From: Streptomyces sp. NBC_00539
GTDB lineage: Bacteria > Actinomycetota > Actinomycetes > Streptomycetales > Streptomycetaceae
Reading direction: 5' to 3'
Length of the DNA: 64,000 nt
NCBI RefSeq assembly: GCF_036346105.1
Contig: NZ_CP107811.1
Location: 1,922,001 to 1,986,000 of the forward strand
Of the stretch, positions 12,176-20,088 are shown one piece after another (position 1 is the first letter of the stretch; the number at the start of each line of letters is the position of its first letter). The position numbers and the translations under genes were made by a program. The notes beneath the pieces were generated by a model that saw nothing but the letters and a program-made list of their open reading frames with translations, was not told the origin of the DNA and did no database searches.

Positions 12176-13312
12176 CTAGGTCTGCTCCGGCTCGTCGAGC
12201 GAGGTGTCGTCGGGCGCGGCTTCCTCTTCCCGGACGGGCCGGGCGAGGTACCGCAGCACGCCCCACATGCTCTCGGGGCTCACCTGACGCGGCTGCGGCT
12301 CGCGGCAGGCCTCCAGTTCGCGCAGCAGACCGGCGCCTTCCATGGCGGAGCCGATCAGGACCAGCTGCGTCAGCCGTGCCTCGCCCCGCCCCCAGGGGGC
12401 GGTGGCGAAGCGGAGGAAGCGGCCCACCGCCTGGACCTCGTAGCGTTCCTCGTGCCCGGGGACGCCGAAGTAGACGTAGCCCTTGATCCGGTAGAGACCG
12501 GCCGGCCGGCGGTCGAGGAAGTCGATGAACCGGCGCGGGTGCATCGCCTGCTCCGATACGAATTCCACGCTTTCGTACCCGGTGTGGACGTGCCCGGCGT
12601 GGCCCTCCTCGCCGTCCGCGGCCTCCCCGGCCAGCAGGTCCTCGAAGGACAGCTGGCCCTGTGGCTGGGTCCAGGGCCGGCGGTCGAAGAGCAGTTCGGG
12701 GTCGACCCGCCCGTGGTCGACGGCCACCACCGGCGTGCCGGGCGCGCACAGTGCGGCGATTTCCGCCTCGGTGCGGGCCCGCTCGGCGGCGTCGATCCGG
12801 TCGGTCTTGTTCAGGACCACCAGGTCGGCGACCGCAAGATGGCGGTCGGTCTCCGGGTGCTTGGCCCGCGTCGCGTCGAACTCCGCGGCGTCCACGACCT
12901 CCACCGTCCCGCCGTACCGGATCGCGGGGTTCTCGCTGGCCATCAGCATCCGGATCAGTTCCTGCGGTTCGGCCAGGCCGCTCGCCTCGATGACGATGAC
13001 GTCGATCCGGTGCGCGGGGGCGGAGAGCTTCTCCAGGTACGCGTCGAGTTCGCTTCCGTCGACCGCGCAGCACAGGCAGCCCCCGCCGAGCGAGACCATC
13101 GAGTCGCCGAGCTGCCCGGCCACCGCCATCGCGTCGATCTCGATCGCGCCGAAGTCGTTGACGACGACTCCGATGCGCGTGCCGCCGCGGTGGGCGAGGA
13201 GGTGGTTGAGCAGGGTGGTCTTACCGGATCCGAGGAACCCGGCGAGGACCACGACGGGGATGGTGCGAGCGCTCCGGTCGGGCTGCCTGGGGGTGGGTGA
13301 TGTCGGGTGCAC
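12176..13312 (-). CDS. CobW/COG0523 family metal-related GTPase
   Basis: This 378-residue protein has the G1 loop GFLGSGKTT (residues 25-33), the COG0523 metal-binding motif CLCC at 79-82, and the NKTD guanine-specificity motif. A CobW C-terminal domain follows. COG0523 proteins deliver zinc or another metal to client enzymes using GTP. The GTG start at 13312 is chosen because it lies 14 nt after the upstream citrate synthase stop; longer readings run back into that gene. It is probably cotranscribed with the citrate synthase, which is unusual company for a CobW protein and gives no clear metal. No Zur box or cobalamin riboswitch is visible. It converges with the nuclease-TerD gene with a 7-bp gap. 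Confidence 0.88.
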   Translation of the reverse strand: MHPTSPTPRQPDRSARTIPVVVLAGFLGSGKTTLLNHLLAHRGGTRIGVVVNDFGAIEIDAMAVAGQLGDSMVSLGGGCLCCAVDGSELDAYLEKLSAPAHRIDVIVIEASGLAEPQELIRMLMASENPAIRYGGTVEVVDAAEFDATRAKHPETDRHLAVADLVVLNKTDRIDAAERARTEAEIAALCAPGTPVVAVDHGRVDPELLFDRRPWTQPQGQLSFEDLLAGEAADGEEGHAGHVHTGYESVEFVSEQAMHPRRFIDFLDRRPAGLYRIKGYVYFGVPGHEERYEVQAVGRFLRFATAPWGRGEARLTQLVLIGSAMEGAGLLRELEACREPQPRQVSPESMWGVLRYLARPVREEEAAPDDTSLDEPEQT

Positions 13313-13326
13313 CCGGCCGATCGTAG

Positions 13327-14478
13327 TCAGCCGAGCGCGGGAACCGGCTGGGGCGGGGTGGGGCCGCTGTAGCGGGCGGCGGGGCGGATGATCTTCGAGT
13401 CGGCGGCCTGTTCCAGGATGTTGGCGCTCCAGCCGACCACGCGGGCCGCGCAGAACGTCGGGGTGAACATCTCGCGCGGCAGTCCGCACAGCTCCATGAC
13501 GACGCCGGCGTAGAACTCCACGTTGGTGTGCAGCTCACGGTGCGGTTTGAGCTCGGCGAGGATTTCCTCGACGTGCTGTTCGACCTCGACCGCGAAGTCC
13601 ACCAGCGGGCCGCCGAACTGCCGGGCGACGTCGCGCAGCATCCGCGAGCGCGGGTCCTCGGTGCGGTAGACGGGGTGGCCGAAGCCCATGATCCGGTCGC
13701 CGGCGAGCACGCGTTCGCGGATCCACGCGTCGATCCGGTCCGCCGTGCCGATCGCGTCGAGGGTGTCCAGGGCCCGGCTCGGGGCGCCTCCGTGCAGCGG
13801 CCCGGAAAGTGCCCCGATCGCCCCGGTCAGACAGGCGGCGATGTCGGCACCGGTGGAGGCGATGACGCGGGCGGTGAAGGTGGAGGCGTTGAAGCCGTGG
13901 TCGATCGTGGAGATCAGGTACTGCTCGACCGCGCGGGCCTTGGCCGGCTCGGGCTCCTGACCGGTCAGCATGTACAGGTAGTTGGCGGCGTACGGAAGGT
14001 CGTCGCGCGGGTCCACCGGTTCCAGGCCCTGCCCGAGCCGGTGCAGCGCGGTGAGCAGGGTCGGCACGGCGGCGCAGGCGGCGAGCGCGTCGGCCGCCCG
14101 GCGGTCGGGGCTCAGGTCGTAGACGGGGCGGAAGCCGGCGGATGCGCCGAGCAGGGACAGCGCCGTGCGCAGACCGGCGAGCGGGCCGGACAGGGAGGTG
14201 GCCCGGGCGAGGGCCGGCAGGGCGTCGCGCACCTCGGCGGGCAGGTGGCGCAGCGGCACGGTCTCGGCGGTGAAGGCGGCTCGCTCGGCTGCGTCCACGG
14301 GCAGGGCGCCCCGGAACATCAGCTGCCACACGTCCTCGAAGCTGCGGCTCGCTGCGAGCTCGACGGCCGAGTACTGGCGGTAGTGGTAGAAGCCTTCGCG
14401 GCCCCGTACGTCCCCGAGTTGCGTCTCGGTGACCACGACGCCCGCGAGTCCGCGGGGTACTTCGACGGTGAGGTTCAT
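13327..14478 (-). CDS. Citrate synthase / 2-methylcitrate synthase family protein
   Basis: This 383-residue protein condenses acetyl- or propionyl-CoA with oxaloacetate by family membership. Visible active-site regions are STIDHGFNASTF, the MGFGHPVYRTEDPRS histidine block, and the FTPTFCAARVVGWSANILEQ end segment. Its length is typical of the short bacterial class. The start at 14478 (MNLTVEVP) gives the normal N-terminus; ATGs up to 14496 are possible but would run into the palindromic operator. It is divergent from a second citrate synthase fused to a DNA-binding domain, with a nested palindrome between them, so that protein probably controls this gene. CobW follows in the same operon. The preferred acyl-CoA cannot be told from the sequence. 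Confidence 0.9.
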   Translation of the reverse strand: MNLTVEVPRGLAGVVVTETQLGDVRGREGFYHYRQYSAVELAASRSFEDVWQLMFRGALPVDAAERAAFTAETVPLRHLPAEVRDALPALARATSLSGPLAGLRTALSLLGASAGFRPVYDLSPDRRAADALAACAAVPTLLTALHRLGQGLEPVDPRDDLPYAANYLYMLTGQEPEPAKARAVEQYLISTIDHGFNASTFTARVIASTGADIAACLTGAIGALSGPLHGGAPSRALDTLDAIGTADRIDAWIRERVLAGDRIMGFGHPVYRTEDPRSRMLRDVARQFGGPLVDFAVEVEQHVEEILAELKPHRELHTNVEFYAGVVMELCGLPREMFTPTFCAARVVGWSANILEQAADSKIIRPAARYSGPTPPQPVPALG

Positions 14479-14494
14479 GGATCGACCATCCATC

Positions 14495-14530
14495 ATGGAT
14501 TCAATCCTTGTCAATATTGATTGAATCCAT
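14495..14530. promoter_or_regulatory. Nested palindromic operator between the divergent citrate synthase genes
   Basis: Arms ATGGATTCAAT (14495-14505) and ATTGAATCCAT (14520-14530) are exact reverse complements. Inside them lies a second perfect palindrome, TCAATATTGA (14511-14520). The AT-rich block is striking in this GC-rich DNA. It lies 16 bp from one start codon and 18 bp from the other. Confidence 0.88.
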
Positions 14531-14548
14531 CTATGTAGGGTGGTGGTC

Positions 14549-15796
14549 ATGAACGAGCAGGCGGATGGCCGGCGGCGGCTCACCACCCGGCAAGCGGCGG
14601 AAGCGCTCGGAGTGAAGCCCGCGACCGTGTACGCGTACGTGAGCCGCGGGCAGCTCACCAGCCGGCGGGACCCGGTCGGGCGCGGCAGCAGCTTCGACGC
14701 GCACGAAGTCGAGGCACTGGCCCGGCGCAACCGGCGCGAGGCGGCCGGTCCGGCGGCCGCCTCGGGAGAACTTTCGGTCCGGACCTCCCTCACCCTGATC
14801 GAGGACGACCGGTACTACTTCCGCGGCGTGGACGCGGTCGAGCTGGCCTCGCGGCACCGCTACGAGGAGGTCGCCGAGTGGCTCTGGACCGGGAAGCCGG
14901 CTCCCGGCGCCCGGTTCACCGCGCCGCCGGAGCCCCTTGCCGCCGCGCGCCGTTCGGTGGCGGCGCTGCCCGAGCACAGCGGCCCCGTCGACCGGCTCCG
15001 GGTGGCGGTCGCGGCGGCTGCCGTGGCGGATCCGCTGCGGTTCGACCTGTCCGAGACCGCCGTACTGGGCTCCGCGCGCTGCCTGATCCCGACGCTGGTC
15101 GGCGCGCTGCCCGAGGTGGGTCCCGCCCAATGGGGCGGTGACGTCCGACTGGCCCGGCGGCTGTGGTCCCGGCTCACGCCGCAGGAGCCGGACCCGGACG
15201 CCCTGGCCGTGCTGGACCTCGCCCTGGCCCTCCTGGCCGACCACGACCTGGCCGCCTCCACCCTGGCCGTCCGCGTGGCGGCGTCGGCGCGGGCCCACCC
15301 GTACGCGGCCGTCTCGGCCGGACTCGGGGCCCTCGAAGGGCCACTCCACGGAGCCGCCGGGCGACTGGCGCACACGATGCTGGTGGAGGTCCTGGAGCGG
15401 GGCGCGGCCGCGCCGGTGGTGGCGGAGTACCTGCGGGCGGGACGCCGGGTGCCGGGGCTCGGCCACCGGCTCTACCGGGGGCAGGACCCGCGCGCCGGGG
15501 CGCTGTTCGCCCGGCTGGAACAGTTGCCGCAGGCCTCCCGGGCGCTGGGGGCGGCCCGGGACGTGGCCGAGGTGATGGCCCGCCACGGCGGCGGCCTCTA
15601 CCCCAACGTCGACTTGGCGGTGGCGGTGCTGACGGTGTCGTACGCCATGCCGGCCGAGGCGGGCGAGACGGTGTTCGCGGTGTCCCGGACGGCGGGCTGG
15701 ATCGCCCACGCCCTGGAGGAGTACCAGGAGCGCCCCCTCCGCATGCGCCCCAGCGGCCACTACACCGGCCCCCGCCCACCGCAGCCCCTCCCCTGA
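14549..15796 (+). CDS. Helix-turn-helix / citrate synthase fusion protein
   Basis: In this 415-residue protein, residues about 8-60 form a MerR/excisionase-type DNA-binding domain (TTRQAAEALGVKPATVYAYV, followed by GRGSSFDAHEVEAL). The rest is a citrate synthase fold with recognisable blocks: ADHDLAASTLAVRVAAS, GPLHGAA, the GLGHRLYRGQDPRAG histidine region and RTAGWIAHALEEYQE. The ATG at 14549 is preferred over the GTG at 14540 because AGGG sits 8 nt before it. The gene diverges from an ordinary citrate synthase across a strong palindrome. The simplest reading is a regulator that uses a citrate-synthase body to sense acyl-CoA, oxaloacetate or citrate, perhaps still enzymatic. No separate regulator for the pair is visible. 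Function is inference from architecture. Confidence 0.88.
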   Translation: MNEQADGRRRLTTRQAAEALGVKPATVYAYVSRGQLTSRRDPVGRGSSFDAHEVEALARRNRREAAGPAAASGELSVRTSLTLIEDDRYYFRGVDAVELASRHRYEEVAEWLWTGKPAPGARFTAPPEPLAAARRSVAALPEHSGPVDRLRVAVAAAAVADPLRFDLSETAVLGSARCLIPTLVGALPEVGPAQWGGDVRLARRLWSRLTPQEPDPDALAVLDLALALLADHDLAASTLAVRVAASARAHPYAAVSAGLGALEGPLHGAAGRLAHTMLVEVLERGAAAPVVAEYLRAGRRVPGLGHRLYRGQDPRAGALFARLEQLPQASRALGAARDVAEVMARHGGGLYPNVDLAVAVLTVSYAMPAEAGETVFAVSRTAGWIAHALEEYQERPLRMRPSGHYTGPRPPQPLP

Positions 15797-16076: not shown

Positions 16077-17693
16077 ATGCGGTTCCTCCTCACCAGCGCT
16101 CGGCGCCTCGGGCTGCCCAGACGGGCCGTCTCCCAGATCCTGCTGACGCAGCTGGCCATCGCGGCCGGGGTCGCGGTTCTGGCCACCGGGCTGTTCCTGG
16201 CGCCGCTCAGCTCGCAGCTCGACGACCAGGCCATGCGGCGGGCCCTCGCGATCGCCCAGAGCGCGGCGGCCGACCCGGCGCTGGCCACCGGCCTGCTGGA
16301 CTCCGCCCCCGTCCCGGACAGCCCGGTGCAGGCGGCTGCCGAGCGGATCCGCCGGGCGACGGGTGCCGAGTACGTGGTCGTCGTGGACCTGAACGGGATC
16401 CGCCGCTCCCACCCCAGCCCCGACCGCATCGGAAAGCCGGTCTCCACCGACCCGGGCGACGCCCTTGCCGGCCGCGAGGTGATGGAGATCGACGAGGGCA
16501 CCCTGGGCCGCTCGGCCCGCGGCAAGGTCCCGCTGCTGGCCGCCGACGGGGAGATCGTCGGCGCCGTTTCGGTCGGCATCGCCTACGACAGCGTCCGGGA
16601 CCGGCTGATCGGGGCCGTCCCGGGCCTGCTCGCCTACGCGGGCGGCGCCCTGGCAGCCGGGGCGCTCGCCGCGTACCTGCTCTCGCGCAGGATCCAGCGG
16701 CAGACCCGCGACCTGGCCTTCTCGGACATCTCCGCCCTGCTCGCGGAGCGGGAGGCGATGCTGCACTCCATCCGCGAAGGCGTGATCGCCCTCGACCGCG
16801 GCGGGCGCGTCCGCCTGGTCAACGACGAAGCCGCCCGGCTGCTGGGCCTCGCGCCGCACTCCGCCGACGCGCTCGCGGGGCGCGCGCTGGACGACGTACT
16901 CGGCGCGGGCCGCACCGCCGACGTCCTCTCGGGCCGCGTAACCGGCCGCGACCTGCTGACCGTCCAGGGCGCCCGGGTACTGGTGGCCAACCGGATGCCG
17001 ACCGAGGACGGCGGCGCCGTCGCCACCCTGCGCGACCGCACCGAGCTGGAGCGCCTGGCCCGGGAGCTGGACTCCACCCGCGGTCTGATCGAGGCCCTGC
17101 GCGCCCAGGACCACGAGCACGCCAACCGGCTCCACACCCTCCTCGGCCTCTTGGAGCTCGGTCTCCACGACGAGGCGGCGGAGTTCGTGACCGAGGTCGC
17201 CGGAGTGCACCGCAGCACCGCCGAGCAGGTCACCGAGAAGGTGCGCGACCCGCTGCTGGCCGCTCTCCTCGTGGGCAAGGGCGCGGTCGCCGCGGAGCGG
17301 GGCGTCTGCCTGCGCCTCGCCGACCGGACCCTGCTCCCGGACGGCCTCGTCGATCCGGGCGGCCTCGTGACCATCACGGGCAACCTGGTGGACAACGCCC
17401 TGGACGCGGCCGCGGCCTCGGCGGCGCCGTGGGTCGAAGTGGAGCTCCGCGCCGAAGGGCGCTCGGCGCTGCTCCACGTCCGGGACAGCGGCCCGGGCAT
17501 CCCCGCCGGCCGGAGCGAGGAGATCTTCACCGAGGGCTGGTCGACCAAGCAGCCCTCGGCCCACCGCGAGCGCGGGCTGGGGCTCGCTCTGGTGCGCCGT
17601 CTGGCCGAGCGGCAGGGCGGTACGGTCCGGGCCGGTGGGACAGCGGACGGAGGGGCGGAGTTCTCCGTCGTACTCCCGGAGGCCCTGCGATGA
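16077..17693 (+). CDS. CitA/DcuS-type sensor histidine kinase
   Basis: This 538-residue kinase has TM1 at about residues 22-44, an external sensor region of about 135 residues and TM2 near 183-205. A cytoplasmic PAS-like domain (REGVIALDRGGRVRLVNDEAARLLG) follows. The SpoB-type kinase core has the phospho-His in DHEHANRLHTLLGLLE (His346), the N box GNLVDNALDAA, and the ATP-lid motifs DSGPGIPAG and RGLGLALVRRLAE. This is the CitA/DcuS class, which senses citrate or C4-dicarboxylates outside the cell. The ATG at 16077 has no clear Shine-Dalgarno sequence, so a leaderless transcript is possible. The stop overlaps the response-regulator start by 4 nt. The 280-bp gap before it is GC-rich with small inverted repeats and no gene. 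Confidence 0.9.
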   Translation: MRFLLTSARRLGLPRRAVSQILLTQLAIAAGVAVLATGLFLAPLSSQLDDQAMRRALAIAQSAAADPALATGLLDSAPVPDSPVQAAAERIRRATGAEYVVVVDLNGIRRSHPSPDRIGKPVSTDPGDALAGREVMEIDEGTLGRSARGKVPLLAADGEIVGAVSVGIAYDSVRDRLIGAVPGLLAYAGGALAAGALAAYLLSRRIQRQTRDLAFSDISALLAEREAMLHSIREGVIALDRGGRVRLVNDEAARLLGLAPHSADALAGRALDDVLGAGRTADVLSGRVTGRDLLTVQGARVLVANRMPTEDGGAVATLRDRTELERLARELDSTRGLIEALRAQDHEHANRLHTLLGLLELGLHDEAAEFVTEVAGVHRSTAEQVTEKVRDPLLAALLVGKGAVAAERGVCLRLADRTLLPDGLVDPGGLVTITGNLVDNALDAAAASAAPWVEVELRAEGRSALLHVRDSGPGIPAGRSEEIFTEGWSTKQPSAHRERGLGLALVRRLAERQGGTVRAGGTADGGAEFSVVLPEALR

Positions 17694-18394
17694 ACGAGAC
17701 CCCGATACACGTATTGGTCGTCGACGACGACATGCGTGTTGCCCGGATCAACGCGGCGTACGTGGCGAAGGTTCCCGGCTTCCGGGTTTCCGCCGAAGTC
17801 CATTCGGCGGCCGCGGCCATGGAGTTCCTGGAGTCCCATCCGGTCGACCTGATCCTCCTGGACCACTACCTCCCCGACGAGAACGGCCTGGACCTGGTGC
17901 GCCGCCTGCGCCAGAACGGCCACCGCACCGACGTCATCATGGTCACCGCAGCCCGGGACCTCACCACCGTCCAGGCCGCCATGCGCCTCGGCGCCCTCCA
18001 GTACCTCGTCAAGCCGTTCACCTTCACCGGGCTCCGCACCCGGCTGGAGGCCTACCGGACCCTGCGGCACGCCCTGGAAGCCGGCGGCGAGGCCGAACAG
18101 GCGGAGGTGGACCGCCTGTTCGGTGCACTGGCGGCGGCCGAAAGCCCCAACGACCTGCCCAAGGGCCACTCGCCGACCACCGCCGAACTCGTCCGCCAGG
18201 TCCTGCGCACCGCAGCCGGGCCCCTGTCGACCCAGCAGATCGCCGACCTCGCGGGCATCAGCCGCCAGACCGCCCAGCGCTACCTCAAGCTGCTGGACCG
18301 CTCCGGCCGGGTCACGCTCGCCCTGCGCTACGGCGAGACCGGCCGCCCGGAACACCGCTACAGCTGGCGGCCCCAGGACCACGGCCCGGCGTAG
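17690..18394 (+). CDS. CitB/DcuR-type response regulator
   Basis: This 234-residue protein has a receiver domain with the acidic pocket VVDDD, the phospho-acceptor Asp in LILLDHYLPDENG, and the KPF lysine loop. The C-terminal half holds a helix-turn-helix (LSTQQIADLAGISRQTAQRYLKLL in the range 175-205) typical of CitB/DcuR regulators. It is translationally coupled to the kinase through an ATGA overlap. It converges with the ActP-like symporter gene, whose transcription it may activate; this is an inference from position and from the usual link of this class to carboxylate transporters. Confidence 0.92.
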   Translation: MNETPIHVLVVDDDMRVARINAAYVAKVPGFRVSAEVHSAAAAMEFLESHPVDLILLDHYLPDENGLDLVRRLRQNGHRTDVIMVTAARDLTTVQAAMRLGALQYLVKPFTFTGLRTRLEAYRTLRHALEAGGEAEQAEVDRLFGALAAAESPNDLPKGHSPTTAELVRQVLRTAAGPLSTQQIADLAGISRQTAQRYLKLLDRSGRVTLALRYGETGRPEHRYSWRPQDHGPA

Positions 18395-18421: not shown

Positions 18422-18510
18422 CCCGGCCAGGGACCCGCCGCGTCACACCGCACCCGTCCCGGCCAGGGACCGGCCGCGTCCCAGCGAGCCCCGCGTCACA
18501 CCGCGCCCGC
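18422..18510. repeat. Imperfect tandem repeats copying the 3' end of the symporter gene
   Basis: Two degenerate copies lie at about 18422-18457 and 18458-18510. Each contains CCCGGCCAGGGAC and/or CCGCGTCACACCGC, and the second runs across the symporter stop codon (TCA at 18496). A third start of the unit (CCCGGTCAGCGACC) lies inside the gene. Read on the minus strand, each unit repeats the last codons and the stop of the gene. Confidence 0.75.
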
Positions 18511-20088
18511 CCCGGTCAGCGACCGGACCTCCGTCTCCGCGTGCTTCGCCGCGTCCGGTTCCTCGGCCGAGGTGAGCGTGCCGAGCCAGCCCGCGAGGAA
18601 CCCGAGCGGGATCGACACGATCCCGGGGTTCTGGAGCGGGAAGTACTGGAAGTCCACTCCCGGGAACAGGGACTCCGGGCTGCCGGAAACCACCGGGGAC
18701 AGCACGACCAGCACCACCGCCGGCACCAGCCCCCCGTACACGGCCCAGACCGCCCCCCGCGTGGTGAACTCCCGCCAGAACAGCGAGTACAGCAGCACGG
18801 GCAGGTTCGCCGAAGCGGCTACCGCGAAGGCCAGTCCGACCAGGAACGCCACGTTGAGGTCCTGGGCCAGCAGCCCCAGGGCGATCGCCACCGCTCCGAT
18901 CCCGACGGCCGCCGTCTTGGCCACGGCAACCTCGCTGCGCTGCCGGCCGTGACGGCGCCCCAGCGACGCGTACAGGTCGTGCGCGACGGAGGCCGAGGAC
19001 GCGAGGGTGATCCCGGCGACCACCGCGAGGATGGTCGCGAAGGCGATGGCGGCGACGAAGGCGAACAGCACCGCGCCCCCGGTGGAATCGATGCCCCCGC
19101 CCAGGAAGCCCGCGAGCAGCGGAACCGCCGTGTTCCCGGAGGCGTTGGACGCCCGTACCTCGTCGGGCCCGAGCAGCGCGGCCGCTCCGAACCCGAGCAC
19201 GATGGTCATCAGGTAGAACCCGCCGATCAGCGCGATGGCCCAGACGACGGACCGGCGAGCCGCGCGCGCCGTCGGCACGGTGTAGAAGCGGGACAGGATG
19301 TGCGGGAGGCCGGCCGTGCCCAGGACGAGGGCGAGGCCCAGGCTGATGAAGTCGAAGCGAGCGGTCCAGTCGGCCCCGTACTTGAGGCCGGGGCTCAGGA
19401 ACCGGGCTCCGTGTCCGCTGCGCTCGGCGGCGCTGGTCAGAAGCTGGTTGACGTCGCCGTGGAAGCGCAGCAGCACCAGTACGGTCAGGGTGACCGCGCC
19501 GCCCATCAGCAGCACGGCCTTGACGATCTGGATCCAGGTGGTGGCCCGCATGCCGCCGAACGACACGTAGACCACCATGAGCGCGCCGACCCCGATCACG
19601 GTCAGGGTCTTGGCGCCGGTGCCCGAACCGCCGATCAGCAGCCCGACCAGGCTGCCCGCGCCGACCATCTGCGCGACGAGGTACAGCACGGAGACCACGA
19701 CCGAGGAGGTGCCGGCGGCGATCCTGACCGGCCGCTGGCTCATCCGGGCCGCGACCACGTCGGCGAGGGTGAACCGGCCGCAGTTGCGGACCAGTTCGGC
19801 GACGAGGAAGAGGACCACCAGCCACGCGACGAGGAAACCCACCGAATACAGCATGCCGTCGTAGCCGAAGAGGGCGATGAGGCCGGAGATGCCGAGGAAG
19901 GAGGCGGCCGACATGTAGTCGCCGGCGATGGCGAACCCGTTCTCCAGCGGGGAGAAGAGGCGGCCGCCGGCGTAGAACTCCTCTGCCGAGCCGTGCCGGT
20001 TGCGGCTCACCCATGTGGTGATGCCCAGGGTGATCGCGATGAAGACGCTGAACAGGACCAGCGCGAGGGCTTGGTGCTCGGTGCTCAA
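18496..20088 (-). CDS. Sodium:solute symporter, ActP/MctC-like acetate/monocarboxylate permease
   Basis: This 530-residue protein has 13-14 hydrophobic segments of the SSS family. Conserved blocks are EEFYAGGRLFSPLENGFAIAGDYMSAASFLG and the GTAGLPHILSRFYTVP segment typical of ActP-type carriers. It should import acetate, pyruvate, propionate or related acids with a cation. The start is TTG at 20088, overlapping the DUF485 stop (TTGA) behind the strong site GGGAGGAGG, so the two are translationally coupled, as yjcH-actP are in other bacteria. The C-terminal codons and stop are partly duplicated downstream. The neighbouring CitA/CitB-type system and citrate synthases suggest coordinated use of external carboxylates. 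Confidence 0.92.
   Translation of the reverse strand: MSTEHQALALVLFSVFIAITLGITTWVSRNRHGSAEEFYAGGRLFSPLENGFAIAGDYMSAASFLGISGLIALFGYDGMLYSVGFLVAWLVVLFLVAELVRNCGRFTLADVVAARMSQRPVRIAAGTSSVVVSVLYLVAQMVGAGSLVGLLIGGSGTGAKTLTVIGVGALMVVYVSFGGMRATTWIQIVKAVLLMGGAVTLTVLVLLRFHGDVNQLLTSAAERSGHGARFLSPGLKYGADWTARFDFISLGLALVLGTAGLPHILSRFYTVPTARAARRSVVWAIALIGGFYLMTIVLGFGAAALLGPDEVRASNASGNTAVPLLAGFLGGGIDSTGGAVLFAFVAAIAFATILAVVAGITLASSASVAHDLYASLGRRHGRQRSEVAVAKTAAVGIGAVAIALGLLAQDLNVAFLVGLAFAVAASANLPVLLYSLFWREFTTRGAVWAVYGGLVPAVVLVVLSPVVSGSPESLFPGVDFQYFPLQNPGIVSIPLGFLAGWLGTLTSAEEPDAAKHAETEVRSLTGAGAV

Follow-up and report, generated by a model that had tools for sequence, protein, structure and literature searches.

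The window, a 64,000-nucleotide stretch of Streptomyces sp. NBC_00539 (assembly GCF_036346105.1, contig NZ_CP107811.1, positions 1,922,001 to 1,986,000), contains two divergently oriented genes that flank a short promoter region (Table 1). The rightward gene encodes a 415-residue protein, here called HTH-CS, in which Pfam detects a helix-turn-helix (HTH) head (HTH_17, 29.5 bits vs a cut-off of 27) and a citrate synthase (CS) fold (Citrate_synt, PF00285, 216.7 bits vs a cut-off of 27), confirming the DNA-binding head joined to a citrate synthase fold that had been described in an earlier note on this DNA. This architecture is visible to the databases because Pfam itself detects both domains, and homologues are named there citrate synthase, citrate/2-methylcitrate synthase, or citrate synthase family protein. 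HTH-CS falls far short of the thresholds for named CS subfamilies (TIGR01800, 163.4 vs 421.3 bits; PRK12350, 156.6 vs 332 bits), and it scores below the curated cut-off of the MerR HTH model (22.4 vs 28.2 bits), which places it outside MerR membership, and below that of the excisionase model. Its HTH is of one kind with those of MerR/excisionase (HTH_17) proteins, to which HTH-CS adds a full CS body. With a DNA-binding domain and an enzyme fold in one chain, HTH-CS has the architecture of a one-component regulator. In the GabR/MocR proteins, an aminotransferase fold is fused to a GntR winged helix; by description they are like HTH-CS in being one-component regulators with an enzyme fold of retained active site as the ligand sensor, and unlike it in their HTH family, their operator, and their enzyme, which is PLP-dependent and not of the CS fold.

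Table 1. Features of the divergent gene pair and its promoter region, numbered from the first base of the window.
Feature	Position	Strand	Remarks
Plain CS gene, PRK12350 subfamily	13327..14478	-	NCBIfam over cut-off; ATG at 14478
Putative -10 of plain CS, GATGGT	14485..14490	-	18 nt from -35; predicted role
36-bp palindrome	14495..14530		Present; 12/12 arms in this species only among 81 loci
Putative -35 of plain CS, TTGACA	14509..14514	-	Overlaps operator; in 80/81 loci; predicted role
Inner palindrome, TCAATATTGA	14511..14520		Kept across phyla as TCAAYNTTGA
Conserved operator, TCAATATTGATTGAATCCA	14511..14529	+	Three half-sites; relatives' consensus TCAAYRTTGATYNRATCAA
Putative -10 of HTH-CS, TAGGGT	14536..14541	+	7 nt ahead of ATG; predicted role
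HTH-CS gene	14549..15796	+	ATG at 14549 taken as start, stop ending at 15796; HTH_17 head at residues 11-61, citrate synthase body at residues 73-401 (Pfam, NCBIfam)

The leftward gene encodes a plain CS, which the earlier note had called an ordinary citrate synthase divergent from HTH-CS; the divergent arrangement stands, whereas "ordinary" does not, as the catalytic Asp of this partner is a Glu. All 149 partner CS rows that can be read at this position have Glu (one further row has a gap), and the substitution is constant from Agrobacterium to Streptomyces. The best PDB match of the plain CS, Bacillus subtilis CitA (2c6x), likewise has Glu, whereas the next, 1iom, has Asp. The B. subtilis citA gene has a divergent dedicated regulator, CitR, a LysR protein and so of another family than HTH-CS. 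A CobW-family GTPase gene (12176-13312, minus strand) follows the plain CS gene in the window. Downstream of HTH-CS lie genes for a sensor kinase resembling DcuS/MalK and a response regulator resembling DcuR (16077-18394, plus strand; both below named cut-offs), a pair that suggests a C4-dicarboxylate theme for the locus, and a gene for an MctC-type monocarboxylic acid transporter (NCBIfam equivalog over cut-off) is found at 18496-20088 on the minus strand.

The 36-bp palindrome with a second palindrome inside it, as claimed in the earlier note, is exact in the window. It consists of two perfect 12-bp arms separated by 12 nt; among 20,000 first-order Markov simulations of the 70-nt intergenic stretch, only 9 produced perfect arms of that length with a spacing of 12 nt or less. 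Its conservation was assessed against the best 80 of 371 related loci (79 from Streptomyces and L057 from Actinobacteria bacterium), and did not hold: 67 of the 81 loci have 7-10 of 12 arm matches, and the 36-bp palindrome was rejected as the operator because none of the other 80 has 12/12 arms. The conserved element is instead the inner palindrome plus a third half-site, and its consensus TCAAYRTTGATYNRATCAA is present with no mismatch in 72 of the 81 loci and with one mismatch in the other 9. The third half-site is altered in this species, reading AATCCA instead of the usual AATCAA. A divergent CS is present at 79 of the 80 nearest relatives; L052 is without the CS yet retains the operator, and by eye a CobW-GTPase-like sequence lies upstream of its HTH-CS gene.

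The left half-site of the operator belongs to TGTCAA, the complement of the TTGACA taken as the plain CS -35 (80/81 loci). At a fixed spacing of 18 nt stands a -10-like hexamer with A at position 2 in 79/81 loci and T at position 6 in 78/81. On the other side, TA...T followed after 7 nt by (A/G)TG precedes HTH-CS in 75/81 loci, and the HTH-CS transcript is therefore probably leaderless. Distances from the operator to this second -10 fall mainly into clusters of 6, 16-17, 27-30, and 37-39 nt, about a helical turn apart. The interpretation in the earlier note thus finds partial sequence support, in a conserved operator placed on the promoters of both HTH-CS and its divergent CS. These positions bear on the direction of control. 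Activation of the plain CS promoter by HTH-CS is a serious though less probable alternative to its repression: the operator keeps a fixed 18-nt distance to the CS -10, arithmetic puts its centre near -42 of the predicted CS start, the position of a class II activator, and the clustering by helical turn on the HTH-CS side would fit as well. Against activation, the consensus TTGACA overlaps the left half-site, which suits occlusion, and the phasing test of the operator to -10 distances is weak (p about 0.01, with related loci). Repression relieved by a ligand is favoured over activation, with moderate confidence.

Homologues were drawn from two samples of 296 genomes each, one by phylum and one by class, and from 18 plasmid records picked by organism and annotation from the matched ones (79 and 74). 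For the phylum and class loci, each search contributed its best matches, 30 at most, with L096 and L113-L115 left out as having no HTH region; three genomes occur twice (L089/L229, L092/L228, and L135/L223), and L121/L124 and L102/L105 are near-copies. All 18 plasmid-record proteins start with an HTH of the HTH-CS kind. Counted as an exact match no more than 260 nt ahead of the recognition-helix codons, the core TCAAYNTTGA occurs at HTH-CS in 40 of 50 non-Streptomyces loci from three phyla, with Deinococcota represented by one locus (17/19 phylum loci, 2/2 actinobacterial and 15/16 other plasmid-record loci, and 6/13 class loci). The background is 5 of 6524 windows, and 10,000 Markov simulations gave 10. 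Variants include L105, with one mismatch in the core, L122 and L227, with the core and an inexact third half-site, and one actinobacterial genus (L207-L213), in which by eye the TTGAT-spacer-RTCAA part alone is recognisable; the 260-nt upstream search found no operator site near HTH-CS in L110 and L132.

The divergent neighbour of HTH-CS changes across these loci. It is a plain CS in Agrobacterium and Chelatococcus, a CoA-transferase in Comamonas antarctica, Ewingella, and Azospirillum, an MFS transporter followed by a 2-hydroxyacid dehydrogenase in Caballeronia, Thioclava, and Paraburkholderia largidicola, a 2-hydroxyacid dehydrogenase in Comamonas endophytica and one further Comamonadaceae, a DUF2332 protein in Roseomonas and Pseudoroseomonas, and a pyruvate carboxyltransferase in Deinococcus. 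The P. sprentiae HTH-CS has neither a divergent neighbour nor an operator site at its locus. The constant partner of the operator across changing neighbours is HTH-CS. Recognition-helix residues are kept in 93-100% of the 45 non-Streptomyces HTH-CS rows, and across phyla some of the best conserved positions of the protein lie in the HTH. In G321, the plain CS lies on a 408-kb contig that carries no HTH-CS (L221), and its upstream region retains GACTGTCCATG and is free of the operator.

The S. coelicolor genes SCO5831/SCO5832 (citA3/citA4) and the S. albus genes slnwt_1428/slnwt_1427 are most likely the same divergent pair. In the available portions of the published reports, an MtrA site lies between sco5831 and sco5832 and is bound in EMSA (PMC12323332), and RspA1 binds the slnwt_1427/1428 promoters, likewise in EMSA (PMC7411085). 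SCO5831 is termed citrate synthase-like (PMC9739823) and slnwt_1428 distinctive among CS (PMC7411085); the same portions treat both pairs as enzymes, with an HTH or a regulator role unmentioned (PMC12323332, PMC7411085, PMC9739823). The binding of MtrA and RspA1 to the intergenic region would fit a box owned by another regulator, of MtrA or RspA1/GlnR type, with HTH-CS a bystander enzyme carrying a vestigial HTH. We consider this highly improbable, since the operator recurs by HTH-CS in Proteobacteria and Deinococcus despite different neighbours, and the HTH is among the best conserved parts of the protein. MtrA in particular was rejected as the owner, because the best matches to its reported site (2 mismatches, in loci other than that of S. 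coelicolor) fall beside the operator, on the CS side of the box and over the plain CS -10.

In a genus sample of 121 Streptomyces genomes, HTH-CS is present in 77, the plain CS in 75, and both in 73; neither G391, whose HTH-CS is a fragment at the end of a contig, nor G400, with a CS near a contig end and no HTH-CS, was counted as a loss. Three genomes (G023, G193, and G398) have HTH-CS and lack both the CS partner and the local operator. A pattern scan found a related operator site elsewhere in these three and in other genomes, and in 11 of twelve such regions (L230-L240), which are syntenic, the site precedes a family III CoA-transferase gene (PF02515). Regions L230-L241 had been selected by site match; the association was then calculated on CoA-transferase matches with or without a site. 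Such matches were found in 73 of the 121 genomes and 72 start regions were examined, with G351 left out (its match starts at residue 175) and one of the two G358 copies used. The strict site TTGAYYNRRTCAAY stands at the CoA-transferase in 18 of 44 genomes with HTH-CS vs 0 of 28 without it (Fisher p = 4e-5), and, where the CoA-transferase is at least 73% identical to the query, in 18 of 27 vs 0 of 12 (p = 8e-5), in tests that treat related genomes as independent. Seventeen of the 18 strict sites lie at an identical distance from the CoA-transferase ATG, and G023, G193, and G398 all have one. With TTGAYYNRRTCAA and one mismatch allowed, the counts are 21 of 44 vs 3 of 28 (p = 0.002), and 23 of the 44 genomes with HTH-CS and a CoA-transferase match have no site there even at one mismatch. 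The sites in genomes without HTH-CS are those of G128 (0 mismatches), G316, and G356 (1 each), which the strict form excludes by adding a pyrimidine.

Scanned with the 19-base operator pattern (at most 3 mismatches), the window's own genome has a single match, the one described here, and the backwards control also matches once. This had suggested a single-target regulator, an idea overturned by the CoA-transferase site of the genus scan. The own genome has no CoA-transferase match at E<=1e-100, so the second target rests on other Streptomyces. The CoA-transferase is 41% and 40% identical, in the aligned part, to the divergent neighbours of HTH-CS in Comamonas and Azospirillum, respectively, and the one beside HTH-CS in Ewingella shares its Pfam family. 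The co-occurrence of fusion and palindrome that the earlier note had proposed to check is therefore borne out in a sharper form: from phylum to phylum the operator accompanies HTH-CS, and an unlinked gene has a related site. HTH-CS thus also has the second mark of a one-component regulator, a specific conserved operator at candidate target promoters, from which its regulation of these genes is predicted.

Residues of the CS body were compared in 173 aligned HTH-CS rows, some of which share a genome (L003 residues were disregarded). The catalytic H267 and D355 and the arginines R315, R380, and R400 (window numbering) are found in 173/173 rows, and H232 and H306 in 170/173 each. We take the invariant positions to be equivalent to His274, Arg329, Asp375, Arg401, and Arg421' of pig CS and the near-invariant ones to His238 and His320; with roles assigned by this numbering, HTH-CS retains the catalytic and oxaloacetate residues. 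The position after GHxxY and the Asn two before the catalytic Asp are presumably CoA contacts. At the former, all 149 readable plain CS rows have Arg or Lys, but of 104 Streptomyces HTH-CS rows compared (out of 128) only 20 do, Pro being commonest; at the latter, Asn is found in 26 of 45 non-Streptomyces HTH-CS. From these residues we infer that the HTH-CS pocket binds an oxaloacetate-like ligand, whereas CoA binding appears doubtful. The acyl-CoA sensing put forward in the earlier note is likewise doubtful because relaxation affects the presumed CoA contacts and spares the oxaloacetate and catalytic residues. The invariance of the catalytic Asp argues that the acyl site has not been lost altogether.

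The invariant catalytic His and Asp would equally fit an active citrate or alkylcitrate synthase with an added regulatory role, a trigger enzyme reporting the flux of oxaloacetate and acyl-CoA. This is unlikely, as the presumed CoA contacts, invariant in the partner CS, vary in HTH-CS, and a Caulobacter protein, CitC, which we guess to be an HTH-CS, points the same way. CitB is reported to replace GltA, whereas CitC, encoded beside CitB, fails to complement E. coli gltA (PMC7083601). In a 92-row maximum-likelihood tree of CS bodies, the 51 HTH-CS fall on one side of a single branch (100/100), with 36 partner CS and 5 other CS making up the remainder and long branches flagged. A recent fusion of HTH and CS was rejected on this basis, the HTH-trimmed bodies of HTH-CS forming one clade.

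Together, the computed architecture, operator conservation, cis and trans association of the operator with HTH-CS, residue conservation, and single clade indicate that HTH-CS is very probably a one-component transcription factor with a CS-fold sensor, a gene switch whose operator is kept beside the gene in three phyla and, in some Streptomyces, matched by a site at the CoA-transferase. In the proposed mechanism, a dimeric CS body would carry two winged helices of the MerR/excisionase type, predicted to read TTGAY/RTCAA half-sites. In the window, the operator overlaps the putative -35 of the plain CS and the -35/spacer region of the probably leaderless HTH-CS promoter, and in other Streptomyces the related site overlaps the promoter of the family III CoA-transferase. 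The CS pocket would most likely bind oxaloacetate or a related di- or tricarboxylate, altering binding to the operator.

More broadly, HTH-CS may belong to an ancient, cross-phylum class of CS-fold factors that sense oxaloacetate, or a running acyl-CoA condensation, through a complete pocket and control a small acyl-CoA/2-oxoacid regulon, a tentative reading that we find nearly as probable as its contrary. That regulon would comprise the Glu-type citrate synthase, the family III CoA-transferase, and the 2-hydroxyacid dehydrogenase with transporters. If this is true, proteins annotated as citrate synthase become transcription factors with a predicted operator and, in Streptomyces, two predicted targets; bacteria would have a direct gene switch for the oxaloacetate/acyl-CoA node, and a fold of central metabolism would join the enzyme folds that have evolved into sensor domains, the aminotransferase fold of GabR among them. 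We know of no dedicated oxaloacetate sensor, and an exact-phrase literature search for one found no paper. By title and start of abstract, none of the matches listed in a literature search that mostly excluded subscription papers describes HTH-CS as a regulator.

Two Streptomyces, G182 (L087, L225) and G591 (L201), have the plain CS gene interrupted at an identical codon (about residue 35, after TACCGCCAG). In G182, the remainder of the gene is on the same contig at a distance of about 160 kb, and an open reading frame in L225 resembles a tyrosine integrase by eye; an integrative element may use the plain CS gene as an attachment site. In G307 (L223, L224), whose genome is a single contig, the break in the plain CS falls elsewhere in the gene, and the two parts lie about 4.5 Mb apart.
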